Below, piece after piece: positions 3,562-56,289 of a stretch of DNA of 59,896 nt. Position numbers and translations under genes: made by a program. Location of the stretch: positions 1-59,896 of the forward strand of contig JAUXGA010000015.1 in assembly GCA_030622545.1 (NCBI GenBank), in the 5' to 3' direction. Under the pieces are notes generated by a model. It was not told the DNA's origin and did no database searches. It was given only the letters and a program-made list of their open reading frames with translations. Within the stretch, counting starts at the first letter, position 1, and every line of letters starts with the position of its first letter. The DNA comes from a bacterium. Lineage in GTDB: Bacteria; Electryoneota; RPQS01; DYHQ01.

Positions 3562-4482
3562 ATGCCACAATTTTTTCTGAAACCTAAATTTGATTTCATC
3601 AGCGCGCGCTGGACTTTTCTAACGATTTCTATCGTGATTATTCTGGCGGGCATTGTGACCCTTGCGATTCGCGGCCCGAACTACTCGATTGACTTTCGCG
3701 GCGGGTTGGATATCCATTTACGCTTTGAAAAGCCGATTACCGAAGGGGAAGTGCGCAGTGCGCTTTCGCCGTTGGATTTGGGAGTTGCCGAAGTCAAGCG
3801 CGTGCATGCGCTGGGCGAACCCGATGAAATTCTGATTCGTATCAAGCAATCCGAAGTTTCGTCTGATCTTATCACGAGAATTGAATCAACGCTCGCCGAG
3901 GCCTTCCTCGATAATCCTTTCGATGTTCGCAATGTGGACGCGGTCGGACCGAAAGTCGGGCGTGAACTCCGGCGACAGGCGATTATTTCGGCGCTCGTGG
4001 CGTTGGTACTGCTGATGATTTATATCTCCTGGCGATTTGAATTCAAGTTTGCCGTAGGCAGCGTTGTCGCGCTGCTGCACGACGTGCTGATTACGCTGGG
4101 GTTCTTTGCCTTTTTCAACTATGAAATATCTCTGCAGGTCGTGGCGGCGTTTCTGACGCTCATCGGATACTCTCTAAATGATACGATTGTCGTTTATGAC
4201 CGCATTCGAGAAAATATGAATAAACTGCGCACGAAATCGCTGGCTGAAATTGTGAACGACAGCATCAATCAGACGCTTGCACGAACGGTGATTACGTCGG
4301 TAACACTCTTCGTGGTGGTGCTCGTGCTCTTCCTTTTCGCGGGACAGGTTGTGCGCGGGTTTGCGTTTGCGATGCTGATCGGGGTGATTACCGGAACGTA
4401 CTCTTCGATTTTCGTGGCGGCGCCGGTGGTTTTGGAATGGGCACAGCGCACAGCGGTTAAGGGCAAGAAAAAACGCCGCTGA
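3562..4482 (+). CDS. secF: Protein translocase subunit SecF
   Basis: Partner of SecD in the Sec accessory complex. One N-terminal membrane segment (about 17-37) is followed by the periplasmic domain starting at the YSIDFRGG motif, then five C-terminal membrane helices including a LNDTIVVYDRIREN motif. At 306 residues it has normal length. The ATG follows the secD TAA directly, and no separate ribosome-binding site is obvious, which fits coupled translation. A terminator follows at 4518-4545. Confidence 0.97.
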   Translation: MPQFFLKPKFDFISARWTFLTISIVIILAGIVTLAIRGPNYSIDFRGGLDIHLRFEKPITEGEVRSALSPLDLGVAEVKRVHALGEPDEILIRIKQSEVSSDLITRIESTLAEAFLDNPFDVRNVDAVGPKVGRELRRQAIISALVALVLLMIYISWRFEFKFAVGSVVALLHDVLITLGFFAFFNYEISLQVVAAFLTLIGYSLNDTIVVYDRIRENMNKLRTKSLAEIVNDSINQTLARTVITSVTLFVVVLVLFLFAGQVVRGFAFAMLIGVITGTYSSIFVAAPVVLEWAQRTAVKGKKKRR

Positions 4483-4517
4483 TTTTTCGGGGAGACACTG
4501 GCACAGGAAATATTGCG

Positions 4518-4545
4518 AAACCCCGAAAGCGGCTCGGGGTTTTTG
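4518..4545 (+). terminator. Rho-independent terminator after secF
   Basis: AACCCCGA and TCGGGGTT pair around a short loop and are followed by a T-run. The terminator ends the secDF unit and sits directly before the restriction-modification cassette, 16 bases upstream of the methyltransferase start. Confidence 0.85.
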
Positions 4546-4561
4546 CATTTGGAAAGGACAT

Positions 4562-5521
4562 ATGATGAAGGAAACAGCCGAAATTAAGCCTTTAGCTACA
4601 GAAGTGGTCGATGAATTCCCTGTAGTCATTTCAGAAGGTGACTCTTGGTACCAAAGAAAACTACCTATTGATGGAAATCGTACATGCATATGCAAGGCAA
4701 ACCATATTAATTGTATGACCGCCAAAGAATGGCTTAAGAGTCAACTAGGAGTTTGGCAGTTTACATACGAAAAACGAGATGTTCGTGACAAAAAGGCGCA
4801 TCCTGCTACCTTTCCAATTTCGCTTGCAAGACAAGTTATCAAATTATTCTCGCACGAAGGAGAACTTGTTCTTGACCCATTCGTAGGGAGTGGTACAACA
4901 TTAATTGCAGCTCAAGATCTAAACAGAAATGCCGTGGGTTTCGATTTGCACAAGCCCTACATTGATCTTTCTTTTAAAAGATTAACGGGCAACACAAGCA
5001 TGTTTGGCAATTCCCAACAAATTGCTATCCACGACGACGCTTGTAATATACCAGCGTATCTCACTCATGATGTAGTATCTCTAATATGGACTTCCCCTCC
5101 ATATGCCAATCTCCTCAATCGCGAGCGCCGGAATAAATCTCGCCGATATCGTAAAAACGAACAGCTAGGTAAAGTAGAACAATACTCTCAAGACCCGCGA
5201 GACTTGGGCACAATGGCCTTGAATGAGTACACGAAGGCTATGGGAGATACATATGAACAACTCTTGCCACTCCTAAAACCTAAAGGACACTGCGTTATTA
5301 ATGTTCCCGATATGTGGTGGGAAAATGAGAGAATTACCATCCATGTAGCTCTCATAGACGAATTGAGAAAACGCGGCTATGAACTGCGAAATATAATTAT
5401 TTGGGACAGAACAAATATCGTCAATCGAATTGGCATATTTGGCTGGCCGAGCAACTATATTACAATGGGTGTCACATTCGAGTATCTTCTGGATTTCTGG
5501 CGGCCGCCCATTGATATTTAA
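4562..5521 (+). CDS. DNA methyltransferase of the MvaI/BcnI-type restriction-modification cassette
   Basis: This SAM-dependent DNA methyltransferase probably protects the host from the nuclease encoded 14 bases downstream. The SAM-binding motif DPFVGSGTT starts at residue 105 and the catalytic motif TSPPY at residue 177. TSPPY is typical of N4-cytosine methylases, but N6-adenine enzymes of the same fold exist. The SAM-binding block precedes the catalytic block, which excludes the usual beta-class order. Translation may start at 4562 or at the second ATG, 4565. A GGAAAGGA box precedes both. The gene is clearly AT-richer than secF and purA, suggesting transfer. Function as partner of the nuclease is inferred from adjacency. 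Confidence 0.85.
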   Translation: MMKETAEIKPLATEVVDEFPVVISEGDSWYQRKLPIDGNRTCICKANHINCMTAKEWLKSQLGVWQFTYEKRDVRDKKAHPATFPISLARQVIKLFSHEGELVLDPFVGSGTTLIAAQDLNRNAVGFDLHKPYIDLSFKRLTGNTSMFGNSQQIAIHDDACNIPAYLTHDVVSLIWTSPPYANLLNRERRNKSRRYRKNEQLGKVEQYSQDPRDLGTMALNEYTKAMGDTYEQLLPLLKPKGHCVINVPDMWWENERITIHVALIDELRKRGYELRNIIIWDRTNIVNRIGIFGWPSNYITMGVTFEYLLDFWRPPIDI

Positions 5522-5535
5522 CACAGGAGTTAGAA

Positions 5536-6318
5536 GTGCGAATCTTGACCAAAGAGGATTTGGTAAAAGCTCTTAGGGAAATCAGAAGCAAAGGATGGAT
5601 CCCCAATGCACGCCCCGGTAATGTTGGAGGTGTTGGCAATACTTTAGAAGATCTTCTTGGAATTGAAGAAAACAACCTCCCACTACCAAATGCTGGTGAA
5701 TGGGAGCTCAAATGCCAACGAATTAATACTACCTCATTGACAACACTATTTCATATGGAGCCATCTCCAAGAGCGATCAAATTTGTACCAAAAGTACTTC
5801 TTCCCTTGTATGGGTGGCAACACAAAGAAGCCAACACCAAATACAATGAAGATGAAATGAGTTTTAGACAAACAATAAATGCGGTCTCAAGAACAGATAG
5901 AGGATTTGGTCTCATTGTAAATAATACTGAATTGAAAGTAACAGTATCATTCGATTCAGGTCAAGTTGATCAACGACACCAACAATGGCTAAAATCAGTG
6001 GAATCACGCGTAGGCCTCGCAGAACTTGATCCACAACCTTATTGGGGATTCTCAGATCTCTTTCACAAAGCAGGTTCCAAACTAACAAACTGCTTTTTCG
6101 TTCAAGCTGAAGTGAAAAGAGAAGGAAAAAAGGAATATTTTCATTTCACTCAAATAGAACAACTTGAGAATTTGTCCTTAAAACAATTCTTAGGATCAAT
6201 TGAAAAGGGAATCATCTTAATCGACTTTGACGCCAGAACAGGACATAACCATGGGACTAAAATCAGAATGCGTAATGAATGTCTTCCAAAATTGTACGAA
6301 AGAGTCATTTCGATTTAG
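5536..6318 (+). CDS. MvaI/BcnI-family restriction endonuclease
   Basis: The 260-residue protein matches the MvaI/BcnI family, whose characterised members cut CCWGG (MvaI) or CCSGG (BcnI). The visible catalytic signature is GNTLEDLLG followed by WELK, with E57 and K59 as the E-x-K pair and D39 as a likely metal ligand. A HNHGT motif near residue 237 resembles a conserved C-terminal block of the family. Translation starts at GTG 5536 with a CAGGAG box eight bases upstream. The sequence shows no frameshift and looks intact. Which CCNGG variant is recognised cannot be read from sequence. It ends 21 bases before purA. Confidence 0.8.
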   Translation: MRILTKEDLVKALREIRSKGWIPNARPGNVGGVGNTLEDLLGIEENNLPLPNAGEWELKCQRINTTSLTTLFHMEPSPRAIKFVPKVLLPLYGWQHKEANTKYNEDEMSFRQTINAVSRTDRGFGLIVNNTELKVTVSFDSGQVDQRHQQWLKSVESRVGLAELDPQPYWGFSDLFHKAGSKLTNCFFVQAEVKREGKKEYFHFTQIEQLENLSLKQFLGSIEKGIILIDFDARTGHNHGTKIRMRNECLPKLYERVISI

Positions 6319-9200: not shown

Positions 9201-12014
9201 CTACTTTGCAGTGCTCCAGGAAGTCTTCGTGGTACGATGGAACTTCATACCCTTCTTTAGTGCTTCCTTGCTAATCCTCTTCGGCATGGCGCCCTTTGTC
9301 AGAGGCGACCAGGCTTCACCTACCTTATGACTGGCTGTCTTGTAGTAATCCGCATAACGCATCGGGCCGATGTCTGTCGGAATCGTCATTGACGGAGGCT
9401 CAACGGTAGGATCACAGGCACCTGCAACAACGTACAGAGCTTTCTGTTCGGTTCCGAGAACATCCTGATACGGCGGCTGGACATTGCTGGCAATCAGCGA
9501 GAAGTCGCCCGGCCACGCCGGATCATCCATATCGGCTGCGCGATAGACATCGTGTCCGCAAGCGGATGGAGTCCAATTGAGCTCGACATTGCCCGTACCG
9601 TCTTCGATAACCGTCAAATCGCTCGGGTCGACAATACCGCACTCGACGGCACGCAGAATCAGATCACTGTGGGGAACTGGGGGATCCGGAGGAGGAGGGT
9701 TAAAGTACGACGTGTCAATGTTCCAGGAACCACTGCCGGGGATCTCGTCCGGATAGAAGATGTACGTACGATAGTCGGGATACGACGTCCCGCTCGGACC
9801 ATCTGAGTCAAATGCGACCCCTTCCAATTCCGGATATTCGGCACCTGTAAGGTTACGCATGGCGATGTAGAAGTCGCCTTCGGTGATTTCAATGCACGGG
9901 CAGAACTTCACATAGTACCAGCTGTTGAAGCTCGTGTCATCACAAGCGTTAACGCCGAGGTTCCAGCACATTCCCGTTTCATCCGGACCGTAGAGCAGCG
10001 TACCGGGCAGATTGTCGGCGCCATTGTCATCATAGACTTCAAAAACCATGTCCTGATGGTCACCATCCGGCCAGTTGTTTGGAGCCTTGAAGTGTGCGCC
10101 ACCGAGATAGTACGGATACGAAGGCGGTGTGAAACGAACAGCCCAGCATTGCCACCATGAGAAAGAGATGTTGCCGTACCAGTCCTCACCATCATCATAG
10201 GCGATTTCGGACGGCGTGCTCATGATGTCAACATGGTAATGCTCCGTCGGTGCCGTCGTCGGTAAAAGCGTCGTCTGTCCTGAACCACCCGGATCGGTCG
10301 CTGAGAAGTAGTAGCCGTAGCGGCAGCAGCTCGTCAAACTTGGAACCATAGCCTCATAAAGGTTGTTATACTCGCAACCTGTAACCGGCGTCATGGCAAC
10401 GCTGGCCCACGTATGCGTCTGGTCATCGGTATAATATAGCAAGACGGTCATCCCGTCATTGTTAGGATCCTGTACATGCGCCGTGACGTGAATAAAGTTG
10501 TCCGTGACATCACAGTGATGTTCATGTGTTATCACCGGCGGAAGCTGCGGCAAGCTGTCGATTCGGATATCGTCGATAAACCAGTTATCAGCATAGGCGC
10601 CGGTATACAGGAACGCAATTCCGACACTGTCGGTGACACAATCGATAATGAAATGAGGGCCTTCATCAATCCACTCATTTTCAGCCGTAGGCGGAATCTC
10701 GTCGATAAAATAGTAGTGTGAGCAGTCCGGAGACGTCCAGTAGAAACCATTGAAATCGTAATCGCCCGGCCACTGACATCTCTGCATCCAGGAGACCTGG
10801 GCTCCGGCATTGTCTGGATTCCTAAGTGGCGATGATGCTCTCCAGTCAACCACGAAACTGTCAGGATCCGTGTACTGGTGTCCCATCATATAGCCTTGAC
10901 TTGAATAACCGCCACCATAGATCAACCATTCCTCTTCGTCCAGTGTGGAATCACGCTGCACACCCCACGACCCGCAAACCGGATCCCAAGCTGTTCCTTC
11001 GTAGAAATTCTCGAGCCAGTGCCCATTGTAGCCGATACCCGACAAGTTAACCGTGTATACGGTTGCTGTTGCGTTTTCACCGGTGTGAGTGATGTCCAGT
11101 GTGCCCATACGGTTGCCTTCAGTCGTGGTTTGGAAAGTGACATCGAGGGTTGTCGATGCACCCGGACCAAGGACATAGGGCAGCGTGGGGCCATTGTCCC
11201 AGTAGAAATCAGGATTCGTCACAGTAATGGCTGTAATCGTGTCGTCTTCCCCCCCGATATTCGTGAGGAGAACGCCCTCTTGCTTAATGGATTCGGCGCC
11301 GGAACCCGCCCACGGGATGGACGCATGACCGAAGAAAAGATTATCCGGGGTGATCCGAAGAGTCGGCTCTGTCGATGCGCCATGTGCTGTTCCCTTGGCG
11401 CGGATCATAAGATAGCCGATTTCCGACGGATCCCGCCACGCATCCCACTGCTCCTTCCACGAACCCCAATGGAAGTAGTCAACACAACAAGCCGTCGGTG
11501 CGTTGTCGTCCCACGAATACGAGGGGGTACTATCTCCACTCGTTTTAATCTGAATAGCGATGAGAAATTCACCTTCGGTTTCGACACCATCGGGAGGATT
11601 GACCGCGTGAGTGAACCAGTAGAAGCCCGCAGCGCCCGGATTGACTTCCTGATATGCTGGGTCGTCAGGAGAGGAATATAACTCTGTACCAGGCCCGTTG
11701 GTGCAAATGCCGCCACTTCCACAGTTGGTGTAGGGCACCGTGCCATTGGCATCGTAAACCTTAATCACGTAGTCCAGATTTTGCGTATCGCCTGCAGCCC
11801 AATACCAACAGAAATGGACAGAGTCCACTAAGAAACTGTCGGTCGGCCCGACTAAGACACACGCGGCAATATCGTCAAACCAAGTATTAGCGGACGACTC
11901 GGGTGTTCCAGAGTCATTGAAGAGCTCCATATATTGTGCTTGAGCTAAATTCGGTAGCGCCGTCGCGAGGATCGCGATGCTCAGAACTGCTAAAAGTGCG
12001 CTTTTCGTAAACAT
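9201..12014 (-). CDS. Large exported protein with HYDIN/ASPM-type beta domain, no T9SS tail
   Basis: The 937-residue protein starts at ATG 12014, chosen because AAAGG lies six bases upstream and a clean signal peptide follows (MFTKSALLAVLSIAIL, cleavage after AQA). After a first beta-rich region, about residues 215-330 carry a TLRITPDNLFFG-type Ig-like domain of the ASPM/SPD-2/Hydin class. Later beta-rich modules contain many aromatic and Asp residues. Near the C-terminus (about 830-890) is a fibronectin III-like stretch. Unlike six other exported proteins here it ends in a basic tail (KRISKEALKKGMKF and on) with no NPFNPTT motif. Its function is unknown, and it may stay periplasmic or use another sorting route. 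Confidence 0.8.
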   Translation of the reverse strand: MFTKSALLAVLSIAILATALPNLAQAQYMELFNDSGTPESSANTWFDDIAACVLVGPTDSFLVDSVHFCWYWAAGDTQNLDYVIKVYDANGTVPYTNCGSGGICTNGPGTELYSSPDDPAYQEVNPGAAGFYWFTHAVNPPDGVETEGEFLIAIQIKTSGDSTPSYSWDDNAPTACCVDYFHWGSWKEQWDAWRDPSEIGYLMIRAKGTAHGASTEPTLRITPDNLFFGHASIPWAGSGAESIKQEGVLLTNIGGEDDTITAITVTNPDFYWDNGPTLPYVLGPGASTTLDVTFQTTTEGNRMGTLDITHTGENATATVYTVNLSGIGYNGHWLENFYEGTAWDPVCGSWGVQRDSTLDEEEWLIYGGGYSSQGYMMGHQYTDPDSFVVDWRASSPLRNPDNAGAQVSWMQRCQWPGDYDFNGFYWTSPDCSHYYFIDEIPPTAENEWIDEGPHFIIDCVTDSVGIAFLYTGAYADNWFIDDIRIDSLPQLPPVITHEHHCDVTDNFIHVTAHVQDPNNDGMTVLLYYTDDQTHTWASVAMTPVTGCEYNNLYEAMVPSLTSCCRYGYYFSATDPGGSGQTTLLPTTAPTEHYHVDIMSTPSEIAYDDGEDWYGNISFSWWQCWAVRFTPPSYPYYLGGAHFKAPNNWPDGDHQDMVFEVYDDNGADNLPGTLLYGPDETGMCWNLGVNACDDTSFNSWYYVKFCPCIEITEGDFYIAMRNLTGAEYPELEGVAFDSDGPSGTSYPDYRTYIFYPDEIPGSGSWNIDTSYFNPPPPDPPVPHSDLILRAVECGIVDPSDLTVIEDGTGNVELNWTPSACGHDVYRAADMDDPAWPGDFSLIASNVQPPYQDVLGTEQKALYVVAGACDPTVEPPSMTIPTDIGPMRYADYYKTASHKVGEAWSPLTKGAMPKRISKEALKKGMKFHRTTKTSWSTAK

Positions 12015-12743: not shown

Positions 12744-15341
12744 ATGTTTGTGCGAATTCTACTTGCGATTCTGCTGTGCTCTCTAACTGCGACCTTCGCG
12801 GCGGGAGCCGTGTTGCAGGGCAGAGTCACGGATTATTCCAGCGGCGAACCCATCGCTGGAGTCGTAATCACCATCAAAGAAACGGGCGTGAAAACCCGAA
12901 CGGACAGCGATGGGCAATTCCGCTTGGAAAACATACCCGCAGGTCGCTATGTTGTGAACGCGGCAACGCGCGGCTATTCGACAGCGGTGCGCGAAGTGGT
13001 TCTGTCTGAAAAAGATGTCATCACGTGGAATCCGGAGCTGACTCCCCGTAGCGAAAGCGCAACGGATCCCACAAAACAACCGCGTTATCTGCTACCGGAA
13101 GTAACGGTAGCCACGACCCGCGCAGGCCGGGAGACGCCGGTTTCTTTCTCAAATCTTGACAGAGAGGATGTCGAGACGCGGTATCACACGCAGGATGTTC
13201 CGCTGCTCTTATGCGAGTTGCCGGGAATCCATGCCTATTCCGATGCCGCGAGTAGCGTCGGTTATTCTTACTTGAAGCTTCGCGGCTTCTCACAAAATCG
13301 GGTAGCCGTGATGCTCAACAACGTCCCGCTCAATGACGCGGAATCCCACGAGGTTTTCTGGATTGACCTGCCCGATTTTCCGAGCGATGTTCAGGACATT
13401 CAGATTCAGCGCGGAGTGGGTAGTTCGCTCTATGGCGCAGCGGCGTTGGGTGGCTCGATTAACCTGATTACGAAAGTGCCCGGTTCCGGGGAAGTGCCGG
13501 GAATTAAAATCGTCGGGGGTTACGGCAGTTTCAACACACGCAAAGCGTCGCTGTCGATGACGTCCGGACGCATTGCAGGGCGATACGGTTTCTCGGGTCG
13601 TTTGACGCGTATTCATTCGGACGGTTATCGCTTCGGGAGCTGGACGGATTTATGGAGTTACCATTTTTCAGCGGCGAGATATACCAAGCATCACACGACA
13701 CATGTGAATTTCTACGGCGGCCAGGAACGAACACATTTGGCTTATAACGGAATTCCAAAGGCAGCGGTGGACGGTTTGATTACCGGCGATAAAGACCATG
13801 ACCGTCGCCTGAATCCGCAGACATACGAGAATGAGATTGACAATTTTTTCCAGCCGCACTATGAGCTGCATGACGAATGGAAACTGACGGACAAGCTCGA
13901 CCTTAACAATACGATTTATCTCTTTCGCGGCGATGGCTACTATGACCAGTGGCGTCCCGGCAAAAAACTTGAGGAATACTTTTTCGAGCCGGGGCAGGAG
14001 ACAGTGCAGGTGAATTTGGATACGCTTTTTGAGTCGTCGTACTATGTGGATGAAAACGATGATGGAATGCCTGACCCGGATACGCTCGCGGACGGTCATA
14101 TCGTCTATCATCTCGAGCGCTTTGATTTACTTCGCCGGCGGAATATCAGCGAAACGGATTGGGGCTGGATTCCGAGATTGTCACTCGATTATGGGAAAGG
14201 CGAAGCGGTTATTGGTGGAGCAATCCGGCTGCATGATGCGCGTCACGAAGGACTCGTACGCTGGGGCAATCCGCTTCCAGTGCGCGTGAATCCTGATTAT
14301 CATTATTACGACTATCGCGTGAAGAAGCAGAGTCTGTCCGGCTTCATTCATCTGTTTCACTCGCTGACACCAAAGCTGCGGGTGATGGTGGATTTGCAGG
14401 TGCAGTCGCAGCGTTATCAGATGGAAGACGACAAGCTATTCGGTGTGGAAACGGACAAAACGTTCGACGCTTTCACGCCGCGTTTCGGTTTGAATTATCT
14501 GCTACTCAGTCCCGACAAACGTCGCAACATTCCTGCGGCGAGTGTGTACGCGAATTTCTCGATGGCTCAGCGCGAACCGGCGTTCAAAGACATTTATGAT
14601 CCGCAGGATTACTGGTCATCGCCATTGACCGTTCCAGACCGTTTCGAGGCTCATACTGGCGGCTACAAATATATCGGAGAATCGCTGAAACCGGAAAAGC
14701 TTTCCGATATCGAAATCGGAACATCGTGGGAATGGTCACGTGCTGGTTTTGGAGTGAATGCGTATTACATGTCGCTCCGCGATGAAATCGTGCCTTACGC
14801 TGGGCAACTCGATGATAACGGCGTGCCCATTTCCGGCAACGCCGAAAAAACACTGCATCAGGGACTGGAATTCGTCATGGCGGCATCGCCAAGAGAGAAC
14901 ATAAAAATCAGCGGGAATTTAGTCATCACGGATCACCATTTTGTCAACTATAAAGAGTGGGATTGGAACGCGTGGGATTTTATCAGCCGCGACGGCAATC
15001 GGCTCGCCGGAGATCCAATCTACATTCGGAATATGCGTGTCGAATGGCGACCGAAAAAATTCCTGCTGGCGATTTCATTGCGCATGGTGGGCAAGCAATA
15101 TATTGACAACAGCCAGGAAGAAGATACCGTCGTGCCGTCCTATGAAGTTCTAAATTTCGATGTCGGCTATCGGTTCGAAAAGGTGTCCGGGATTCGAGGA
15201 CTCGAATTGCGATTGCGGGTAAACAATCTACTTAATAGCGAGTACGAAAGAAGCGGTTACAGCGACTGGGATGACGGCACGCCGCGATATTTTGTTGCGC
15301 CGCCGACAAATATTTTTACCACTCTGATTATCGATGTTTAA
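12744..15341 (+). CDS. TonB-dependent outer-membrane receptor, candidate thiamine/precursor importer
   Basis: The 865-residue receptor has a signal peptide (about 1-21, MFVRILLAILLCSLTATFAA), then a carboxypeptidase-regulatory-like domain (about 22-100). A plug domain with LPGIHAY and GVGSSLYGAAALGG (about 120-235) and a 22-strand-type barrel follow. The last residues are TNIFTTLIIDV rather than the usual terminal Phe. Start ATG 12744 has GGAGG eight bases upstream. The only substrate evidence is the TPP riboswitch in its leader. Thi-box-controlled TonB receptors are a known comparative-genomics prediction for thiamine uptake in Bacteroidetes. It overlaps the next gene by 8 bases, so the two are coupled. 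Confidence 0.92.
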   Translation: MFVRILLAILLCSLTATFAAGAVLQGRVTDYSSGEPIAGVVITIKETGVKTRTDSDGQFRLENIPAGRYVVNAATRGYSTAVREVVLSEKDVITWNPELTPRSESATDPTKQPRYLLPEVTVATTRAGRETPVSFSNLDREDVETRYHTQDVPLLLCELPGIHAYSDAASSVGYSYLKLRGFSQNRVAVMLNNVPLNDAESHEVFWIDLPDFPSDVQDIQIQRGVGSSLYGAAALGGSINLITKVPGSGEVPGIKIVGGYGSFNTRKASLSMTSGRIAGRYGFSGRLTRIHSDGYRFGSWTDLWSYHFSAARYTKHHTTHVNFYGGQERTHLAYNGIPKAAVDGLITGDKDHDRRLNPQTYENEIDNFFQPHYELHDEWKLTDKLDLNNTIYLFRGDGYYDQWRPGKKLEEYFFEPGQETVQVNLDTLFESSYYVDENDDGMPDPDTLADGHIVYHLERFDLLRRRNISETDWGWIPRLSLDYGKGEAVIGGAIRLHDARHEGLVRWGNPLPVRVNPDYHYYDYRVKKQSLSGFIHLFHSLTPKLRVMVDLQVQSQRYQMEDDKLFGVETDKTFDAFTPRFGLNYLLLSPDKRRNIPAASVYANFSMAQREPAFKDIYDPQDYWSSPLTVPDRFEAHTGGYKYIGESLKPEKLSDIEIGTSWEWSRAGFGVNAYYMSLRDEIVPYAGQLDDNGVPISGNAEKTLHQGLEFVMAASPRENIKISGNLVITDHHFVNYKEWDWNAWDFISRDGNRLAGDPIYIRNMRVEWRPKKFLLAISLRMVGKQYIDNSQEEDTVVPSYEVLNFDVGYRFEKVSGIRGLELRLRVNNLLNSEYERSGYSDWDDGTPRYFVAPPTNIFTTLIIDV

Positions 15342-27062: not shown

Positions 27063-27087
27063 TTCCATCCTATTTAAACCAAATCCT

Positions 27088-27120
27088 CGCCGTTGTGGGT
27101 CTCCAGACCCGCAATGGCGA
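27088..27120 (-). repeat. Dispersed palindrome family F1, copy 4 (reverse orientation)
   Basis: The inner stem GGGTC/GACCC around TCCA is perfect, and the outer arms CGCCGTTG and CAATGGCG pair with one mismatch. It lies between tgt and prmC, together with a larger fold at 27151-27222. Confidence 0.8.
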
Positions 27121-27150
27121 GAGAATTTCCATGCGGTGTTGCTGCACTAC

Positions 27151-29264: not shown

Positions 29265-29287
29265 AATTGTTCCCCAGATTAGTGCTT

Positions 29288-29319
29288 GCCATTGCAGGTC
29301 TGGAGACCCACAACGGCGA
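29288..29319 (+). repeat. Dispersed palindrome family F1, copy 5
   Basis: CCATTGC, inner stem AGGTC/GACCC with one mismatch at its base around TGGA, then CACAACGGCGA. It shares this gap with F2 copy 2, the only place besides the purA-tRNA gap where F1 and F2 occur together. Confidence 0.75.
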
Positions 29320-37810: not shown

Positions 37811-37836
37811 AAGCGCACTGCCGTGCGGCACTACCA
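37811..37836 (+). repeat. 26-bp element F3, copy 1
   Basis: Identical over all 26 bases to 51026-51051 and, inverted, to 50953-50978. It contains the palindrome TGCCG/CGGCA within GCACTGCCGTGCGGCAC. It lies between the convergent citrate synthase and rmuC genes. Confidence 0.8.
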
Positions 37837-48064: not shown

Positions 48065-50881
48065 CTATTTCAGAATCATCAGACGCCCGCTATGCGAACG
48101 CGTCGCAGTTTTTACGCGATAAAAAAGAGGTCCGGACGCATGCGATTGCGGAGGCCACAAAACATGCCGACCACTTGCCGAGCCTTCAAGTAAGACAGAT
48201 GACCCAAGCTGCTGCCCAAGGAGATTATAAAAACGAACTTCGGCGCTTTCATCCGAAGGAAGCATCAATTGCAGCGGCATCCCCATTGCTACTGGATTCG
48301 GAAAAAGCGTCAGCGGTGTTTTCGCTTGCTCGCGCGATTCTACGGGCGGAGTCTGGAATGTGACAGGCTGATACCGTGCGCGGGCTTCGTCCGCATAACG
48401 CCGGAGGGATTCCAAATCCTCTCCCACTAACAAAGCCATTGCCACGCGAACGGTATCCCCCACTTCGAGCGTCAGTGGGCCTACACCGACAATCTCGCTG
48501 ACGTCGGCAACCAAATCACTTTGTGCCGGGACAATTCCTCCGCGCAAAATTGCCCATTTGCGCGCATCATTCCATGGTAAAGCGTCGATATCAATTCGAT
48601 TATTCAGAAGCCGAAATGCTGAGAAGGGATGTGTCACCGAAGCGACTCCTCCCCATGAAAAACCCGGCAACGTGCTCCAAACATACGCCAAATCGCCTTC
48701 AGAATCGTAGTCGCCGGAATTATCGGAAAAATTCGGTATATCCCAGTCCATGAAAAGCCCGACATACAAATCCTCTAAATCGTTCAAGCTTTCATTGGAT
48801 AGTGAGAATTCCAGAATGAAAAGACTATCCGCTGGAGAATTCCGAAACGCCAGCACTCTCGTATCAACATTCACGAAGAGCGGCGTGTTCGAGCCGGCAT
48901 CATGAAAACTCGCATGAGCTTCCAAATCAGCTCGCGGACTGGGCCCAACCCAAACGATGCTGTCTTCAAGCGCGACAAAATCAAAACGATTTCCGTCCGC
49001 ATTCCCGAAACAGTTATCCGAAACATCGCCGTGCGCCGCCACGAGAAGCGAGCCGTGCCATAGAAGATTCGACGGTCTGCCAAGCTCCCGGAATCCGACG
49101 CCAACGGTTTGCTGTTGAACATAGTCGTAGAATCCGAAGCATCCGTGCTCACTGACTCCCAATTCCAGCGCGCCGTTTCCGAGCGTACTCGCCATCGAAT
49201 CCATTTGCAACCGATACACTGTGCGCGCTAAGAGGCGCCCCGCACCGTCAAGCCATTCGAGCGCCACCGGAATCACAAGACCGTTCTGCGCGTCGGGCAG
49301 GATTTCGATTTCAAAAAGCGGCGTTTTATTTTCATAAGGTCCGCCCGGCGGCAAGTCTCCATAGCCGGACGAGCTTTGCAAAACGTGCGCGTGAGAAGTG
49401 GCTACCTCCATAAGACCAATCACCCCCTGCGCGGACGAAAGCTCATTCCAAACGGAGACGGTTAACGTCGCGTGTTCACCGGGTTCGACATGTCCGTTGG
49501 GAAGAGCCACTTGCTCCTCCCAGTCAATACTCTCGAGGCGAATTCCGGGAATCTCGTCAGCTAAGGCGCGATACACATTCAATCGTCCCAGTCCCAATAA
49601 TCCCCACCAGTCGGGATTTCGAGCGTCAATCGGATCCGCGGAAGCCATGAGCCGCGATGCAATTTGATTGCCTGTGAAATCAGGATACTTGCTCCATACC
49701 AGAGCTATCGCACCTGCCACGAGCGGACAAGCCATCGACGTTCCACTTGCATGACCGTAGCTGTTTTGAGGCAGCGTCGAAAAAATATCCATACCGGGAG
49801 CGGAAATATCCACCCATGCTCCATAGCTTGTAAAGAAAGCGGGATAGTCGCCGATATCCGTCGCGGCGACACTAATGACTCCTTCCAGAGCCGCCGGATA
49901 GTTCCATCTGTTCAAGGGTTCATTTCCCGCCGCCGCCACAACGACACATCCCTGCGCTCGGGCGTATTGGATAATGTCATTCTCATAGTTGGAAAATTCA
50001 GTACCGCTCCATGAACAGTTGACGACGTTCGCCCCTGTGCAAGCCGCGTACCAGATAGCTTCGTAGCCATAAGTCACTTCTATACCGGCCCCACAACGCA
50101 CATTCATCACGCGGCAGTCTCCAGCGATGCCGCTGATACCGAGTCCGTTGTTGCGCGCCGCCGCGGCGATTCCTGCGACATGCGTTCCGTGCGCATCTCC
50201 ATTTTCGGGCGACGGGTCTCCATCCAAATCCACCCAGTCATACCCGTAAATATCATCAATAATACTGTTGCCGTCATCATCAACACCAGCGATTCCATGC
50301 AGTTCCTGCAAATTCACCCAGCGCTGAGGATTTAAGTCATCATGGGTGAAATCCACTCCCAAGTCAGCGATGGCGATAACGATGTTCGTATCTCCCGATG
50401 CGAAATCCCAGCCCGCTTCCGCTTGAATGCGTTCCAGTCCCCATTGCAGCGGATAGAATGGATCATTCGGCGGCCCGTCCAGATGTTCTCCGTGGTTTTT
50501 CTTTATACGTTCAGGCAACCGACATGTATGGCGAATCCGTCTCGGTTCCGCCCATTCGACATCCGAGCTCTGTTGAAATAGCTGCAATGCTTCCTGCGCG
50601 CTTTGTTCATCCGTGAAACGAAAGCGCAGAATCTTTCCGAGTTCCCGCGAATTACAATCCCACACTTGCACAGGCAACGCGCTTCCTGCTTCGAGACACG
50701 TCTCCTGCAGCTCGGACGAAAGCAAACTTGCCGCGTCAAGACGCGACGGCAACACATGGAATTTCACAAGCACCTCACGCCGCGCTTGCGAAACGATTTG
50801 AGATTCTGTCAGCGGCGCTGCAAGAATTCCCTGCGCGTATATCAAAAGCACAATGAGAATAGAAAAATATGTCGATTTCAT
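48065..50881 (-). CDS. Subtilisin-family (S8) serine peptidase with T9SS-like tail
   Basis: The 938-residue protein has a signal peptide (to about residue 21) and a propeptide-like region to about 130. The S8 catalytic domain follows: Asp 173 (IADLGVD, with L where most have T or S), His 231 (GDAHGTHVAG), Asn 320 (AAAGNE) and Ser 382 (SGTSMACP). After about residue 450 come CARDB-like and further beta domains. The last 80 residues, LTLFPNPVAMGMPLQLML and on to SGRLMILK, match a T9SS tail with a weakened NPFNP turn. It is likely a secreted protease. Whether the D-L-G variant alters activity is not known. Confidence 0.9.
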   Translation of the reverse strand: MKSTYFSILIVLLIYAQGILAAPLTESQIVSQARREVLVKFHVLPSRLDAASLLSSELQETCLEAGSALPVQVWDCNSRELGKILRFRFTDEQSAQEALQLFQQSSDVEWAEPRRIRHTCRLPERIKKNHGEHLDGPPNDPFYPLQWGLERIQAEAGWDFASGDTNIVIAIADLGVDFTHDDLNPQRWVNLQELHGIAGVDDDGNSIIDDIYGYDWVDLDGDPSPENGDAHGTHVAGIAAAARNNGLGISGIAGDCRVMNVRCGAGIEVTYGYEAIWYAACTGANVVNCSWSGTEFSNYENDIIQYARAQGCVVVAAAGNEPLNRWNYPAALEGVISVAATDIGDYPAFFTSYGAWVDISAPGMDIFSTLPQNSYGHASGTSMACPLVAGAIALVWSKYPDFTGNQIASRLMASADPIDARNPDWWGLLGLGRLNVYRALADEIPGIRLESIDWEEQVALPNGHVEPGEHATLTVSVWNELSSAQGVIGLMEVATSHAHVLQSSSGYGDLPPGGPYENKTPLFEIEILPDAQNGLVIPVALEWLDGAGRLLARTVYRLQMDSMASTLGNGALELGVSEHGCFGFYDYVQQQTVGVGFRELGRPSNLLWHGSLLVAAHGDVSDNCFGNADGNRFDFVALEDSIVWVGPSPRADLEAHASFHDAGSNTPLFVNVDTRVLAFRNSPADSLFILEFSLSNESLNDLEDLYVGLFMDWDIPNFSDNSGDYDSEGDLAYVWSTLPGFSWGGVASVTHPFSAFRLLNNRIDIDALPWNDARKWAILRGGIVPAQSDLVADVSEIVGVGPLTLEVGDTVRVAMALLVGEDLESLRRYADEARARYQPVTFQTPPVESREQAKTPLTLFPNPVAMGMPLQLMLPSDESAEVRFYNLLGQQLGSSVLLEGSASGRHVLWPPQSHASGPLFYRVKTATRSHSGRLMILK

Positions 50882-50952: not shown

Positions 50953-51051
50953 TGGTAGTGCCGCACGGCAGTGCGCTTGCACCCATCGCGCGTAACCTTT
51001 CTCATCGCCGAGCCGTGTTCAACAGAAGCGCACTGCCGTGCGGCACTACCA
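50953..51051. repeat. Perfect 26-bp inverted repeat made of two F3 elements
   Basis: Arms 50953-50978 and 51026-51051 are exact inverse copies, with 47 bases between. A third identical copy is at 37811-37836. The inverted pair looks like a small non-autonomous element or a bi-REP, between the subtilase and dagK. Confidence 0.8.
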
Positions 51052-51117: not shown

Positions 51118-52008
51118 CTATGGAACAATCAGCTTCATGGCGAGTGGTTCGACACGTATCGAAATTTCAGCCGGGCCGTCAACCGGATCACCGTCCACAT
51201 GAAACGGTCCCGGAGCGCTGCGCTTGATGGACAACTTTGGCGCGCGGAAAATACTCACCTCGGGCGTTCGAGGAAGGTTGCCGCGCAGGATACGAGGCAC
51301 CAGACTTATGGCTCGCAAGACGGATACCGGCTCAATCACCACCACATCGAGCAAACCATCCGTCGCGGAAGCGTCCGGCGCAATGATAGTTCCGCCTCCA
51401 TATTGACTCAAATTCGCCGCGGTTACCAGCAGCAGTTGACGCGCTTCCTTGGAATAACCGTCATGCGAAAGAGAAATTTCTTCAGGCTGAAACTTGCGAA
51501 GCTCAGCGACTGCCAACCGAAAATAAGATACGATCCCGCGCGCTTTTGAATCCTCGAACGCAAACGCGACGCGAGCATCAAACCCCACGCCGCAGGTCAC
51601 AAGAAAAAGTCGGCCTTCGCACCAGCCGACATCAATTTTTTGTGTCCTGCCTGCTCCAATCACTTTCAGTGATTTCCCCAGACTCAGCGGAATCTTGAAA
51701 TGACGAGCCAGTCCATTACCGGAACCCGTAGGCACGACCGCGAGCCGCGCATTTGTTCCATAGATGCCCGTCGCCACCGCGTTAATCGTTCCGTCACCGC
51801 CGACAGCGACCACCGGGTCGTATCCTTGCTTCGCGGCTTCTTGCGCGGTCTGCAACGTCTCCACCACCGTATGCGTCACCTGAATCGCTTCCAACTGCGG
51901 ATTGCGACGCATGTGCAGCGCAATCATCTGCCGGAACCAGACTTTATTTATCGCCGGTCCTGCATTCGGATTGACGATGAAGAAGGGATTGAGACCGTTT
52001 GGGTTCAT
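51118..52008 (-). CDS. Diacylglycerol/lipid kinase family protein (YegS/DagK-like)
   Basis: A 296-residue soluble lipid kinase of the DAGK catalytic-domain family, with the nucleotide motif GGDGT (70-74), PTGSGNGLAR (about 92-101) and the FHVDGDP motif near the C-terminus. Members phosphorylate diacylglycerol, sphingosine-like lipids or related lipids. The substrate cannot be told. ATG 52008 has no clear ribosome-binding site and starts four bases after the stop of the putative peptidase gene. A near-identical copy of its first 43 codons lies about 3.07 kb upstream at 54862-55077. Confidence 0.9.
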   Translation of the reverse strand: MNPNGLNPFFIVNPNAGPAINKVWFRQMIALHMRRNPQLEAIQVTHTVVETLQTAQEAAKQGYDPVVAVGGDGTINAVATGIYGTNARLAVVPTGSGNGLARHFKIPLSLGKSLKVIGAGRTQKIDVGWCEGRLFLVTCGVGFDARVAFAFEDSKARGIVSYFRLAVAELRKFQPEEISLSHDGYSKEARQLLLVTAANLSQYGGGTIIAPDASATDGLLDVVVIEPVSVLRAISLVPRILRGNLPRTPEVSIFRAPKLSIKRSAPGPFHVDGDPVDGPAEISIRVEPLAMKLIVP

Positions 52009-52012
52009 AGTT

Positions 52013-54826
52013 CTATTTCAAGAGAAGTAATCGACGACTGACCTGATTGTCACCTGCTCTCAAGCGGCAGAAATAGAGACCGGATGGTACTTCAAACCCT
52101 GCGTCGCTCCTGCTGTCCCAAATGACTTCATGCAATCCTGCCGTAAAATGCTCACTGGTCAGGGTGCGAATCTTTTGACCCAGCAGATTGTAAATCACCA
52201 ACTCTGCCGTCGCTGGCCGCGAAAGAGAAAACTGAATATGTGTGTTGGGATTGAAAGGATTGGGATAGTTGCCATATAAAGCAATCTCAATTGGCAACGC
52301 AGCCGTCGCTACAGGTTCCCTCGCCCCCGAAGTCGAATTGCAGATAAAAACAACTTCGCGCGTGGCTCCGGCGGGAAGTTGTTCCTGCCCCTGATACCAA
52401 ACATACAGGAGCGCAAAATCATCCATGACTTTCACATCCAAGCAATTATGCGAAACAATTTCCACATCGTCCGCCCGGAAAGGAAACAGCACCGTCGGAT
52501 GACGATTGCCCCATTTGCCGTTATAGCCCGGAGAGTCCTGCCGGTTCATCGTGATGCGCACCGTTACCGTATCCCGGCCTGCGCCCTGAACCACCTGAAC
52601 CTCTTCATTATACATCGAACCGGGAATCACTCCGGCCGTCACATTCAGGCGCGCATATAGAGCCGGATTGCCGTAAAGCGCACTGCCATTTAAATCAGGG
52701 GGATCCGTTCCGGGTGTCTGATTCTGAATATCGAAGTAGAGGTTTTGATTAGCGAGGAAAAAAGATTCCGGCCAAGTGTAGAGTCCTTGTCGGGCAAAAA
52801 ACGCTTTCGTGCCGCCATGCTGATGGCTGTCGGAACCTTCCGGAATCACATAACCGGTCATCATGCAAGCGCCGCCCGTGTGAATCCATGCCGGGGCCAT
52901 CGAGTTCATACTTTGAATCTTGCCGACATAACAGTTGCCGAGCGCCAGATAGATTTTCGGATTAACCGAGTTGGCGTTGATGTTTGGGCCGCTGCGAGGG
53001 TCTCCATATAATTGCCCATTTGCAGAGCGGAAGAATCCTTCGTTTCCTGATGTAGGATAATGAAGCTGCCACTCATTATGATTGCCATGTCCGCTGGTCA
53101 TGAAGATATCCACGGGAGCATTATCGAACATCTCAATCCCGTCATTGATCATATTTATCAACCACTCTGTGCGATCCGTTGGCCCGTCAGTGTACGCAAC
53201 GGTTCCCGGCGAATCGAGACGCTTCACGCTATAACGATTGTAGGTTCCCTCACTGGAGGCGATTCCTTGAGGAAAGTAACCAGCATCACAACAATTCGTC
53301 CCTCCCAAGACCGTCTTCACCGTAAAACCGGAGCAGGTGGAGAGCCGCATGGCGTCTTCGGCATTGTATCCGGTGACAATCCCCCAAACAGCATCGCAGT
53401 AAGGGTCCGCATCCAACGCTCGAGTGAAGGGCCAGAGGTTGTTCTGCACGAAACCGGCTGAAGCCGTCAACGCTTCACAAACGAAAGCGATATGGGTAGG
53501 TCGAAAAGCTCCCACCGCGGCTTGCACTTCGCTTAGTGATGAGTTCCAGACAAAAAGCTGACCCTGATAACGCGCGATTAGTGTATCGGCTACCGCCGCC
53601 CAATCCGGCTGGTCGTAGGTGGATTGCTTGACAACCACCGCATAGGTAATCGCCCTCGCCTCTTGGTAGAAGATAGTGAAATCGCCATCCGAAACATCGG
53701 TCGCGGTGTTACCGCAAAAATCAAAAACAACGACTCGAATGCGACACTCTCCCGACGGCGTGTCCGGCACGCGCCAGTTGTAGCTCTGTGGATTGCCTGC
53801 CTGATAAATAACCGGAGTCCAGCTTATTCCGCCGTCGGTCGAGTAATAAATGCTGTCCCCCACAACACCCACGCTGTCGTCCGATTCCCAGGTTATCACA
53901 TGCCATGCGCCCATACTCAGCGATTCGCCGCCGTTGAGTGATGTAAGCGTTACCGTAGGCGGCTCGGAATCGTCCGCGATGGTGAACGTGCTATCTGATT
54001 CATCACAGGCGCAATTCTCCCAGTCGTCACAGGCAACGACGCGCATCAGGCACTCGCTGGAAGGGGTATTGGGAATGACCCAAGCGTGGCTTTGCGGATT
54101 TCCACTGTGACAGGCAACGAGTTCCCATGTAGCTCCAGCGTCTGTCGAATAAAAAACGTTGTCGGATTTGATGGTATCGTCATCTTGAGCTGTCCACAGG
54201 ATTTCCAGCGCTTCGCCTGCGGTGTAGCTTTCTCCGCCGTTGGGAACAAGAACGTCCACCGTTGGCTCCGTCGTGTCCGGAACGGTCAGTGTCAGTGATA
54301 CACTATCAAAGTAAACATCGCAGGAGTGGTCAGCGTGTCCGTTAAAATTATGGCCGCCGAAATAAAGGGTTACATTCTGCTCCGCCCAAGTGCGAATGTC
54401 TATTTGATGATACTCCCAAGAGTAGGTATGCCCGCTTCCCCCTCCGCTGCCGGAGTTAAACAGATTAATATGAACTCCCGGCGAGCCTGCATCTTCAATC
54501 CAGACCGAACCACCGTCGTGCCAGTCCGCACCGCTGATTTCCATATAGAAGTTCAGCGATTCGGCCAAAGCCGGTACGAGCAAAGATTGCGAAACGAATT
54601 CCCATTGGTCATTGGGAGAGTATTGACCCGAAGCCTGGCCTGAGTCAATGTGAACATGCGCGCACCAGCTCCCTTGGAATTGAACGACCTCCGCTTGATG
54701 AGGGCCGGTAACTGTCCAACCGCTGAAATCTCCCGTCTCGAAGTCGCCATTGACCACCTGCGCCCAACACATCGGCAATAAACCAATGAGCACAATCAGA
54801 ACACCTATGGGTATCGCTCTCTTCAT
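52013..54826 (-). CDS. T9SS-exported putative clan CD cysteine peptidase (gingipain/caspase fold)
   Basis: The 937-residue protein has a signal peptide, then a carbohydrate-binding-like module (about 23-185, GDFETGDFSGW). Two PNGGE-type repeats follow (about 195-285 and 290-385, with STDAGATWE and STDGGISWT). Residues about 395-740 resemble the C25/caspase fold: a hydrophobic strand before His 580 in FMTSGHGNHNEW and another before Cys 632 in YLALGNCYVG, the clan CD layout. The end carries NYPNPFNPNTHIQF and RRLLLLK, a T9SS tail. RBS AGGAAAG precedes ATG 54826. Activity is inferred from motif layout only. Gingipains are the known T9SS-exported relatives. Confidence 0.75.
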   Translation of the reverse strand: MKRAIPIGVLIVLIGLLPMCWAQVVNGDFETGDFSGWTVTGPHQAEVVQFQGSWCAHVHIDSGQASGQYSPNDQWEFVSQSLLVPALAESLNFYMEISGADWHDGGSVWIEDAGSPGVHINLFNSGSGGGSGHTYSWEYHQIDIRTWAEQNVTLYFGGHNFNGHADHSCDVYFDSVSLTLTVPDTTEPTVDVLVPNGGESYTAGEALEILWTAQDDDTIKSDNVFYSTDAGATWELVACHSGNPQSHAWVIPNTPSSECLMRVVACDDWENCACDESDSTFTIADDSEPPTVTLTSLNGGESLSMGAWHVITWESDDSVGVVGDSIYYSTDGGISWTPVIYQAGNPQSYNWRVPDTPSGECRIRVVVFDFCGNTATDVSDGDFTIFYQEARAITYAVVVKQSTYDQPDWAAVADTLIARYQGQLFVWNSSLSEVQAAVGAFRPTHIAFVCEALTASAGFVQNNLWPFTRALDADPYCDAVWGIVTGYNAEDAMRLSTCSGFTVKTVLGGTNCCDAGYFPQGIASSEGTYNRYSVKRLDSPGTVAYTDGPTDRTEWLINMINDGIEMFDNAPVDIFMTSGHGNHNEWQLHYPTSGNEGFFRSANGQLYGDPRSGPNINANSVNPKIYLALGNCYVGKIQSMNSMAPAWIHTGGACMMTGYVIPEGSDSHQHGGTKAFFARQGLYTWPESFFLANQNLYFDIQNQTPGTDPPDLNGSALYGNPALYARLNVTAGVIPGSMYNEEVQVVQGAGRDTVTVRITMNRQDSPGYNGKWGNRHPTVLFPFRADDVEIVSHNCLDVKVMDDFALLYVWYQGQEQLPAGATREVVFICNSTSGAREPVATAALPIEIALYGNYPNPFNPNTHIQFSLSRPATAELVIYNLLGQKIRTLTSEHFTAGLHEVIWDSRSDAGFEVPSGLYFCRLRAGDNQVSRRLLLLK

Positions 54827-54861
54827 CTTTTCTTTCCTATCAAAGTAATTTCACTATCCCT

Positions 54862-55077
54862 CTATTGAAGGTCGCACCCTTCATTGGCGTGGCGCCGCTC
54901 AACCGCCTCGCATGCGACACGCGTCGTTTTATTGGCCGTGCGTGTGATTTGAATCGCTTCCAATTGTGGATTGCGGCGCATGTGCAGCGCAATCATCTGC
55001 CGGAACCAGACTTTGTTAATCGCCGGCCCCGCATTCGGATTGACGATGAAAAAAGGATTAAGACCGTTTGTGTTCAT
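54862..55077 (-). pseudogene. Truncated duplicate of the dagK-like gene (5' end only)
   Basis: The first 43 codons match the complete gene at 51118-52008 with one amino-acid change (third residue P to T). The next ~20 residues drift (ITRTANKTTRVACEAVERRHANEG) and a stop follows. No kinase motif remains. DNA at 54949-55079 and 51880-52010 is a direct repeat of about 130 bases. The fragment has its own upstream region, which the complete gene lacks. Confidence 0.88.
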
Positions 55078-55142
55078 AATCACTCAAGAATTTTACAGTC
55101 ATCATCAGAAGTTGTGTTACAATAAAGGCAAATTATACTCAT

Positions 55143-56147
55143 TTAACTTCTGATTTCCTCCACCTTGACCTCTCGAACAACTGCTTCTTCCCAATTGTCA
55201 CATCTAAAACCAACTTGGCCTTCAATGCGTGGAAAATTGAATAACTCACGATATGGCTCTGTATTTAGATTCTCATCAAAAACAGTCTGGTCATTTACAG
55301 ATACAGTAACTTTATCTCCAACAATAGTCGTCACAATTGAAATCCATTCATTTGCTGGATCTTTTAAATCAGCTTTGAACTGTCGTATCTTAAATGGTGT
55401 ATATATATGTTGAGGATCGATCATATGCTGATTCAGAATGTGTGGTGTCAAAACACCTTCTTGATTCAAATTGAACATAACACAAAACGCAGGTAGAATT
55501 TTATCGTGATCTCTTGTTCCCTTTACTATCCACCCAACGCATAGTCTATTAATTTTGGCCTTAAAAGAAAACTTATAATCTCCTAGCAACGCGAGATGTT
55601 CTGTCATTATTGGAAAGCGGGCATTGGTGAAATTAAGTCCCTCATGCGTAAGTTTAAAACTGCATTGAGGAGGTAATGACCAAAACCTCAAAAATTTATC
55701 CAAATCCATGAAATCTTCTATGAAATCGATAGATGGAGGCTCACCTAATTGAAGCTCTTCTTTTTTCTCTAAAAGGACGTTATCCAAAAACCATTGAATG
55801 AGCTTGTTTCTAAAATCTCTTATACTGTTATATTTCTGTAATGTAAATCCTTGCAAGTCAACCGGTACTTTGATGCAATCGGCTATAAATATCGCAAATT
55901 CTTCAGGCGGCTTCTCTTTGATGCAGTACCCCAACTCAAGTATTACATTTGGTGAATTTGAAGATATGTCCGCCACAAAATAATCAGCCGTATCAATTGC
56001 ATGAGTAATCTTTCCCCACAGATTATCTGTTCTGCTATGGTCTTCAATAATAACCGCAGCGATAGCAGCACTTTCACATACAGATTGAATTAATTCATGT
56101 TGTTTAGAGAAAAACTCGCCACATGGAATTGCAAAGAATACTTTCAT
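55143..56147 (-). CDS. TIR/deoxyribosyltransferase-like domain fused to a concanavalin-like domain
   Basis: A 334-residue soluble protein. Residues 1-115 look like the small Rossmann-type fold shared by TIR-like and nucleoside 2-deoxyribosyltransferase-like domains. VFFAIPCGEFF starts it, and ADISSNSPNVILELGY (59-74) carries the Glu (71) found at the base-cleaving site in that superfamily. Residues about 150-332 resemble a LamG/DUF1080-type beta sandwich, ending GQVGFRCDNWEEAVVREVKV. ATG 56147 has AAAGG six bases upstream. The gene is clearly AT-richer than those around it and has no operon partner. An NAD- or nucleotide-cleaving defence effector is one possibility; it is not shown. Confidence 0.65.
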   Translation of the reverse strand: MKVFFAIPCGEFFSKQHELIQSVCESAAIAAVIIEDHSRTDNLWGKITHAIDTADYFVADISSNSPNVILELGYCIKEKPPEEFAIFIADCIKVPVDLQGFTLQKYNSIRDFRNKLIQWFLDNVLLEKKEELQLGEPPSIDFIEDFMDLDKFLRFWSLPPQCSFKLTHEGLNFTNARFPIMTEHLALLGDYKFSFKAKINRLCVGWIVKGTRDHDKILPAFCVMFNLNQEGVLTPHILNQHMIDPQHIYTPFKIRQFKADLKDPANEWISIVTTIVGDKVTVSVNDQTVFDENLNTEPYRELFNFPRIEGQVGFRCDNWEEAVVREVKVEEIRS

Positions 56148-56251
56148 TTTAAACCTTTGGTTTAGATATATAGAGATTCGTCAATTTTAATAAAACAATA
56201 GCAGTAAATAATTTAATGAAATGGCCATCAAAACAATACTAAAAACGACCT

Positions 56252-56289
56252 TCTCGCCATTGCGGGTCTGGAGACCCACAACGGCGAGA
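56252..56289 (+). repeat. Dispersed palindrome family F1, copy 6 (most complete)
   Basis: The two halves TCTCGCCATTGCGGGTC and GACCCACAACGGCGAGA pair around TGGA with two mismatched positions only. It lies between the AT-rich TIR-like gene and the next T9SS cargo gene, 18 bases from the latter's stop, so it might also act as a terminator. Confidence 0.85.

Follow-up and report, generated by a model that had tools for sequence, protein, structure and literature searches.

A diverged partial duplication of dagK around a putative secreted peptidase gene

The first 43 codons of the lipid kinase gene dagK are present twice at one locus, once at the head of an intact gene and once as a truncated stub, and the two copies differ almost exclusively at synonymous positions. 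Very probably the two dagK starts stem from different recent origins; most simply, they would derive from the dagK genes of two species, with the stub truncated only a short time ago. For the locus as a whole we favor, with about as much doubt as confidence, a xenologous partial duplication, in which a peptidase-dagK fragment of a related species would have recombined on one side only and reduced the resident dagK to the stub. This is most likely an ordinary transfer scar with an ordinary cause: the locus gives no sign of a self-moving element, and taken alone is no evidence of a new mobile system.

Layout of the dagK locus

The window, meaning the whole stretch of DNA that was analyzed, is the entire contig C5 (59,896 bases) from a genome of 2.66 Mb in 20 contigs. 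All genes of the locus lie on the minus strand, and in the order of transcription a TIR-like gene is followed by the 71-codon stub, the peptidase gene, intact dagK, and an S8 subtilase gene. The features, in that order, are:

55143..56147, minus strand: TIR-like gene, AT-rich, immediately ahead of the stub; PF10137 matched weakly, below cut-off, and PADLOC TIR/PDC-S35 weakly
54949..55077, minus strand: repeat copy 2, the truncated 5' end of dagK, codons 1-43; 12 synonymous and 1 non-synonymous codon differences
54862..54948, minus strand: in-frame stub tail, from the repeat end to the stop; 25/54 nt identity to dagK
52013..54826, minus strand: peptidase gene, 937 aa, secreted, T9SS-sorted, putatively C25-like; Por_Secre_tail at residues 854-934, SGHG and GNC
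51880..52008, minus strand: repeat copy 1, codons 1-43 of intact dagK; 91.5% identity to 54949-55077
51118..52008, minus strand: intact dagK, a YegS/BmrU-type lipid kinase, 296 aa; PF00781 (DAGK_cat), PF19279 (YegS_C), and TIGR00147 over cut-off
48065..50881, minus strand: S8 subtilase downstream of dagK, conserved flank; 61% identity and same order in the related genome G001

The dagK-start repeat aligns over 143 nt at 88% identity (51867-52009 and 54936-55078), with a core of 129 nt at 91.5% (51881-52009 and 54950-55078; E 2e-46). The initial annotation had placed a direct repeat of about 130 bases at the start of dagK, and this is borne out; its two copies, 3,069 bp apart with the peptidase gene between them, are the only ones in the 2.66-Mb genome, and within the window it is the sole direct repeat of at least 90 nt. 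In both copies the repeat begins 1 base before the ATG, and identity collapses past codon 43-47. As also annotated, intact dagK begins four bases after the putative peptidase gene, whose reading frame stops at 52013, the dagK ATG lying at 52008.

The stub reads in frame for 71 codons (54862-55077), and lacks the GGDGT motif and all dagK sequence beyond it. Because its tail resembles dagK only weakly (shuffle p 0.006-0.0075 for the nucleotide identity; a profile score of 0.7 bits, in about the top 2% of shuffles), we take codon 43-47 as the junction, and what follows as peptidase leader or scrambled DNA. The tail has no other copy elsewhere in the genome, and its identification as a repeated sequence or as a conserved peptidase leader was rejected. 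A search upstream of the TIR-like gene for an older third piece of dagK found none.

Other short elements recur in the window. AAGCGCACTGCCGTGCGGCACTACCA, a 26-nt element, recurs through the genome, with sites in the window at 37813-37831, 50958-50976, and 51028-51046; between dagK and the S8 gene, two inverted copies of it make a perfect 26-bp inverted repeat. A terminator-like hairpin of 33-39 nt is near-identical at 275-312, 27086-27122, 29285-29319, and 56251-56289.

Divergence of the two starts and comparison with relatives

The repeat copies differ at 13 of 43 codons, 12 of them synonymously and one non-synonymously (dN 0.010, dS 0.58; NG86 over 43 codons), and their longest shared identical run is 38 nt. 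In a drifting dead stub, about four fifths of changes are expected to be non-synonymous under neutrality; the probability of 12 synonymous changes among 13 under such decay is ~1e-7, or 1.5e-5 with a generous synonymous fraction. Differences so nearly confined to synonymous sites indicate that the copies diverged as working genes, and not as the halves of one recent duplication. A recent duplication within this genome followed by decay is rejected accordingly, since the differences are not neutral. The balance of synonymous and non-synonymous change in a gene stub can separate a transfer scar from a local duplication, even with one distant relative in an uncultured phylum.

The same genome supplies an internal control. 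Among 823 kb sampled for similar partial duplications there was one comparable duplication of a 5' part, on contig C9, in which 382 nt at 95.8% identity lie 3.8 kb apart; its dN of 0.046 and dS of 0.036 (dN/dS ~1.3) are those of neutral decay. With its sole similar case in the sample decaying neutrally, 5'-part duplication as a habit of this genome was rejected. The C9 pair comprises a truncated upstream copy (658-1122) and an intact downstream copy (4383-5927) of a gene for a T9SS-sorted protein, with three genes between. Contig C18 contributed, in the same sample, one short shared 3'-end piece, which is probably the common sorting domain.

The nearest relative, G001, is the sole same-family genome compared and belongs to another genus. 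Its single dagK is 60% identical to the intact dagK, and it has neither peptidase nor stub, which argues that the module is an addition in this lineage. Collinearity with G001 covers intact dagK and the 14 kb that follow it, with the S8 protease, two T9SS-type proteins, and rmuC arranged alike, and places the intact gene in a conserved context. Upstream of dagK the two genomes have nothing in common, and a search of this genome for the 177-aa gene that G001 has there found none; since G001 belongs to another genus and its upstream flank is not homologous, it does not offer a clean empty site. The annotated insertion of a 3-kb module at the 5' end of dagK is upheld in that the module is extra here, but not to the extent of a matching empty site.

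The initial annotation had also proposed comparing dagK loci in relatives and seeking the peptidase gene at other dagK starts. The dagK neighborhoods of 22 relatives contained no stub and no second dagK or fragment, and dagK adjoined 0 of the 14 other peptidase loci within the flanking DNA examined, which together argue that dagK starts are not a recurrent target among the genomes compared. The dagK start as a recurrent insertion site and the peptidase as a co-traveler of dagK were each rejected on these counts. Neither parental arrangement, TIR-dagK or peptidase-dagK, was found in any genome compared.

Gene content and evidence on mobility

The C-terminus of the peptidase is a type IX secretion domain, Por_Secre_tail. 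In the core, SGHG and GNC are invariant in 11 peptidase homologs, a pattern of residues that suggests a C25/clan CD cysteine protease; the core matched no Pfam peptidase family, and its structure model is poor (pLDDT 46) and does not confirm the core fold. Relatives at 49-63% identity occur in Tariuqbacter, Cloacimonadota, Eisenbacteria, Bacteroidales, and Neomarinimicrobiota, with Candidatus Tariuqbacter arcticus placed in Candidatus Electryoneota by NCBI. The peptidase is absent from G001 and the rest of the order, apart from the common C-terminal domain, and the distribution of the family is patchy. Against plasmids and phages the core gave no match; the common C-terminal sorting domain alone matched, in two plasmids, and a plasmid- or phage-borne core was rejected on that ground.

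From the stub ATG through the TIR-like gene GC is 29-36%, with 36% in the TIR-like gene against 51% for the contig, and by its composition this AT-rich DNA looks foreign. A search of 40 relatives for the TIR-like gene gave nothing but weak TIR matches; the N-terminal half of the gene is TIR-like, and its C-terminal part, judged by eye, resembles a LamG-type sandwich. The initial annotation took the truncated copy to have its original upstream region still in place. GC drops right at the stub ATG, where the AT-rich DNA and the TIR-like gene begin, and no relative has that gene, so the sequence ahead of the stub is not demonstrably original. On a small scale, the locus illustrates cleanly how genes for secreted proteases and defense-like genes can gather beside a housekeeping gene.

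There was no transposase among the module's open reading frames, and no replication, integrase, or plasmid gene within it; the genome has five Phage_integrase matches (tyrosine recombinases), none of them on contig C5. An IS or composite transposon was rejected, given the lack of a transposase and a repeat that is 129 nt and diverged, as against a short target duplication. ComEC is encoded in the genome, and Ku was not found in it. In E. coli K-12, prophage e14 duplicates a 165-bp end of icd; the duplicate differs by 12 nucleotides and two conservative amino-acid replacements, and the gene stays functional (PMC11148124). The dagK locus resembles it in the duplication of a gene end around inserted DNA, in the gene kept intact, and in a strikingly similar pattern of change; e14, however, is a prophage with an integrase and lies near the 3' end of its gene, whereas the dagK locus spans 3 kb, has no integrase, lies at the 5' end, and was seen once. 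An integrative element of the e14/icd type was rejected, and the locus is not classed with such elements, because there is no integrase on the contig and the site is not reused (22 relatives, 14 peptidase loci).

Formation of the locus

Homology on one side with illegitimate joining on the other is a documented route of recombination, and so is circularization followed by a single crossover (PMC3240628). For the dagK locus we infer one-sided joining, together with a direction of transfer and a donor, as follows. Related species would have had two versions of the dagK neighborhood, one with the TIR-like gene ahead of dagK and the other with the peptidase gene 4 bases ahead of it, and a peptidase-dagK fragment of one species would have entered the other. 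On one side, homologous recombination would have taken place in dagK or its conserved downstream flank; on the other, the fragment would have been joined illegitimately within the resident dagK, near codon 43-47. Behind the TIR-like gene there would remain a stub, the first 43 codons of the resident dagK, and after it the peptidase gene and a complete dagK. Such recombination predicts homology to the donor on one side only; in the comparison with G001, a relative, dagK and its downstream flank are homologous and the upstream DNA is unrelated. As in homology-facilitated illegitimate recombination (PMC3240628), foreign DNA would lie beside a homologous anchor, with no need of a recombinase and with possible short microhomology at the odd junction; the dagK locus differs in that the parental arrangement and any deleted stretch are not visible. 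Stub codons 45-46, ACACGC, match dagK of G001; the comparator being the G001 gene and not the resident sequence, this is only suggestive as microhomology at the illegitimate junction. The criterion for homology-facilitated illegitimate recombination is 3-10 bp of microhomology at that junction.

The initial annotation had a circle recombining into dagK, an origin that we regard as unlikely: a circle with the peptidase gene and a related dagK start (for example, a ligated 3-kb fragment) would integrate by one crossover in the 129-nt homology, and its reversal would excise the module. The architecture and the repeat ends are exactly as such a circle would leave them, with homologous direct repeats flanking the insert, and single-crossover integration of ligated linear DNA is documented in E. 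coli (PMC3240628). Campbell-type integration by single crossover likewise leaves a direct repeat of a homologous gene piece around inserted DNA, but the dagK locus is without vector functions, and its homology is short and diverged. The circle would need its crossover within 129 nt at 91.5%, and its module lacks replication, integrase, and plasmid genes and has a peptidase core that matches no plasmid or phage. Both a circle with a single crossover and one-sided linear recombination yield the stub-peptidase-dagK structure; we prefer the one-sided route because it has kilobases of downstream homology available, whereas the circle has 129 nt in which no identical run exceeds 38 nt. The annotated circle retains its fit to the architecture, but linear recombination fits equally, and the copies come from two functional dagK lineages. 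Its corollary, that excision could restore a single dagK, is sound in principle, as the predicted product is open: crossing over within the identical 38 nt would take out 3,069 bp, and the remaining dagK would be in frame, altered at codon 3. Very hard to credit is a non-autonomous 3-kb cassette with its own functional dagK start, moved as a circle by recombinases or RecA in trans and swapping the genes ahead of dagK with the kinase unharmed.

Synonymous-only divergence would fit two functional paralogs as well as two species, and an old duplication within the genome, in which two full dagK genes diverged under selection and the upstream one was later truncated by arrival of the peptidase gene or by deletion, is an improbable alternative; none of the dagK neighborhoods of the 22 relatives has a second dagK or fragment, and the sequence past codon 47 is not clearly dagK. 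More doubtful still is a stub maintained by selection, as a short 71-aa gene or leader that serves expression of the peptidase-dagK unit. Its 71-codon frame is open and its protein sequence is conserved over 43 codons, but recent truncation explains the same data, the stub is without the nucleotide-binding motif, and it has no counterpart in any of the 22 relatives. Assemblers err at repeats, and with 20 contigs this assembly is incomplete; yet the joining of strain variants of the dagK region into an artefact is scarcely to be expected when the junction between codon 43-47 and the peptidase leader lies at no repeat, the repeat copies are 8.5% apart, and the contamination estimate is low (0.27%).

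Repeats elsewhere were also noted. Contigs C9 and C10 of G000 (bases 37 to ~306) both open partway into a T9SS C-terminal domain, at an identical offset, and this repeated domain may break the assembly. An intergenic repeat of ~70 nt, bounded by CCGGCCGGGTTACGC and GAACCCGGCTCGGC, occurs in L132 at 5974-6049 and 13821-13896 and in L139 at 1547-1615 and 11440-11507, and accounts for the 12-mers that are most frequent in the sampled genome.
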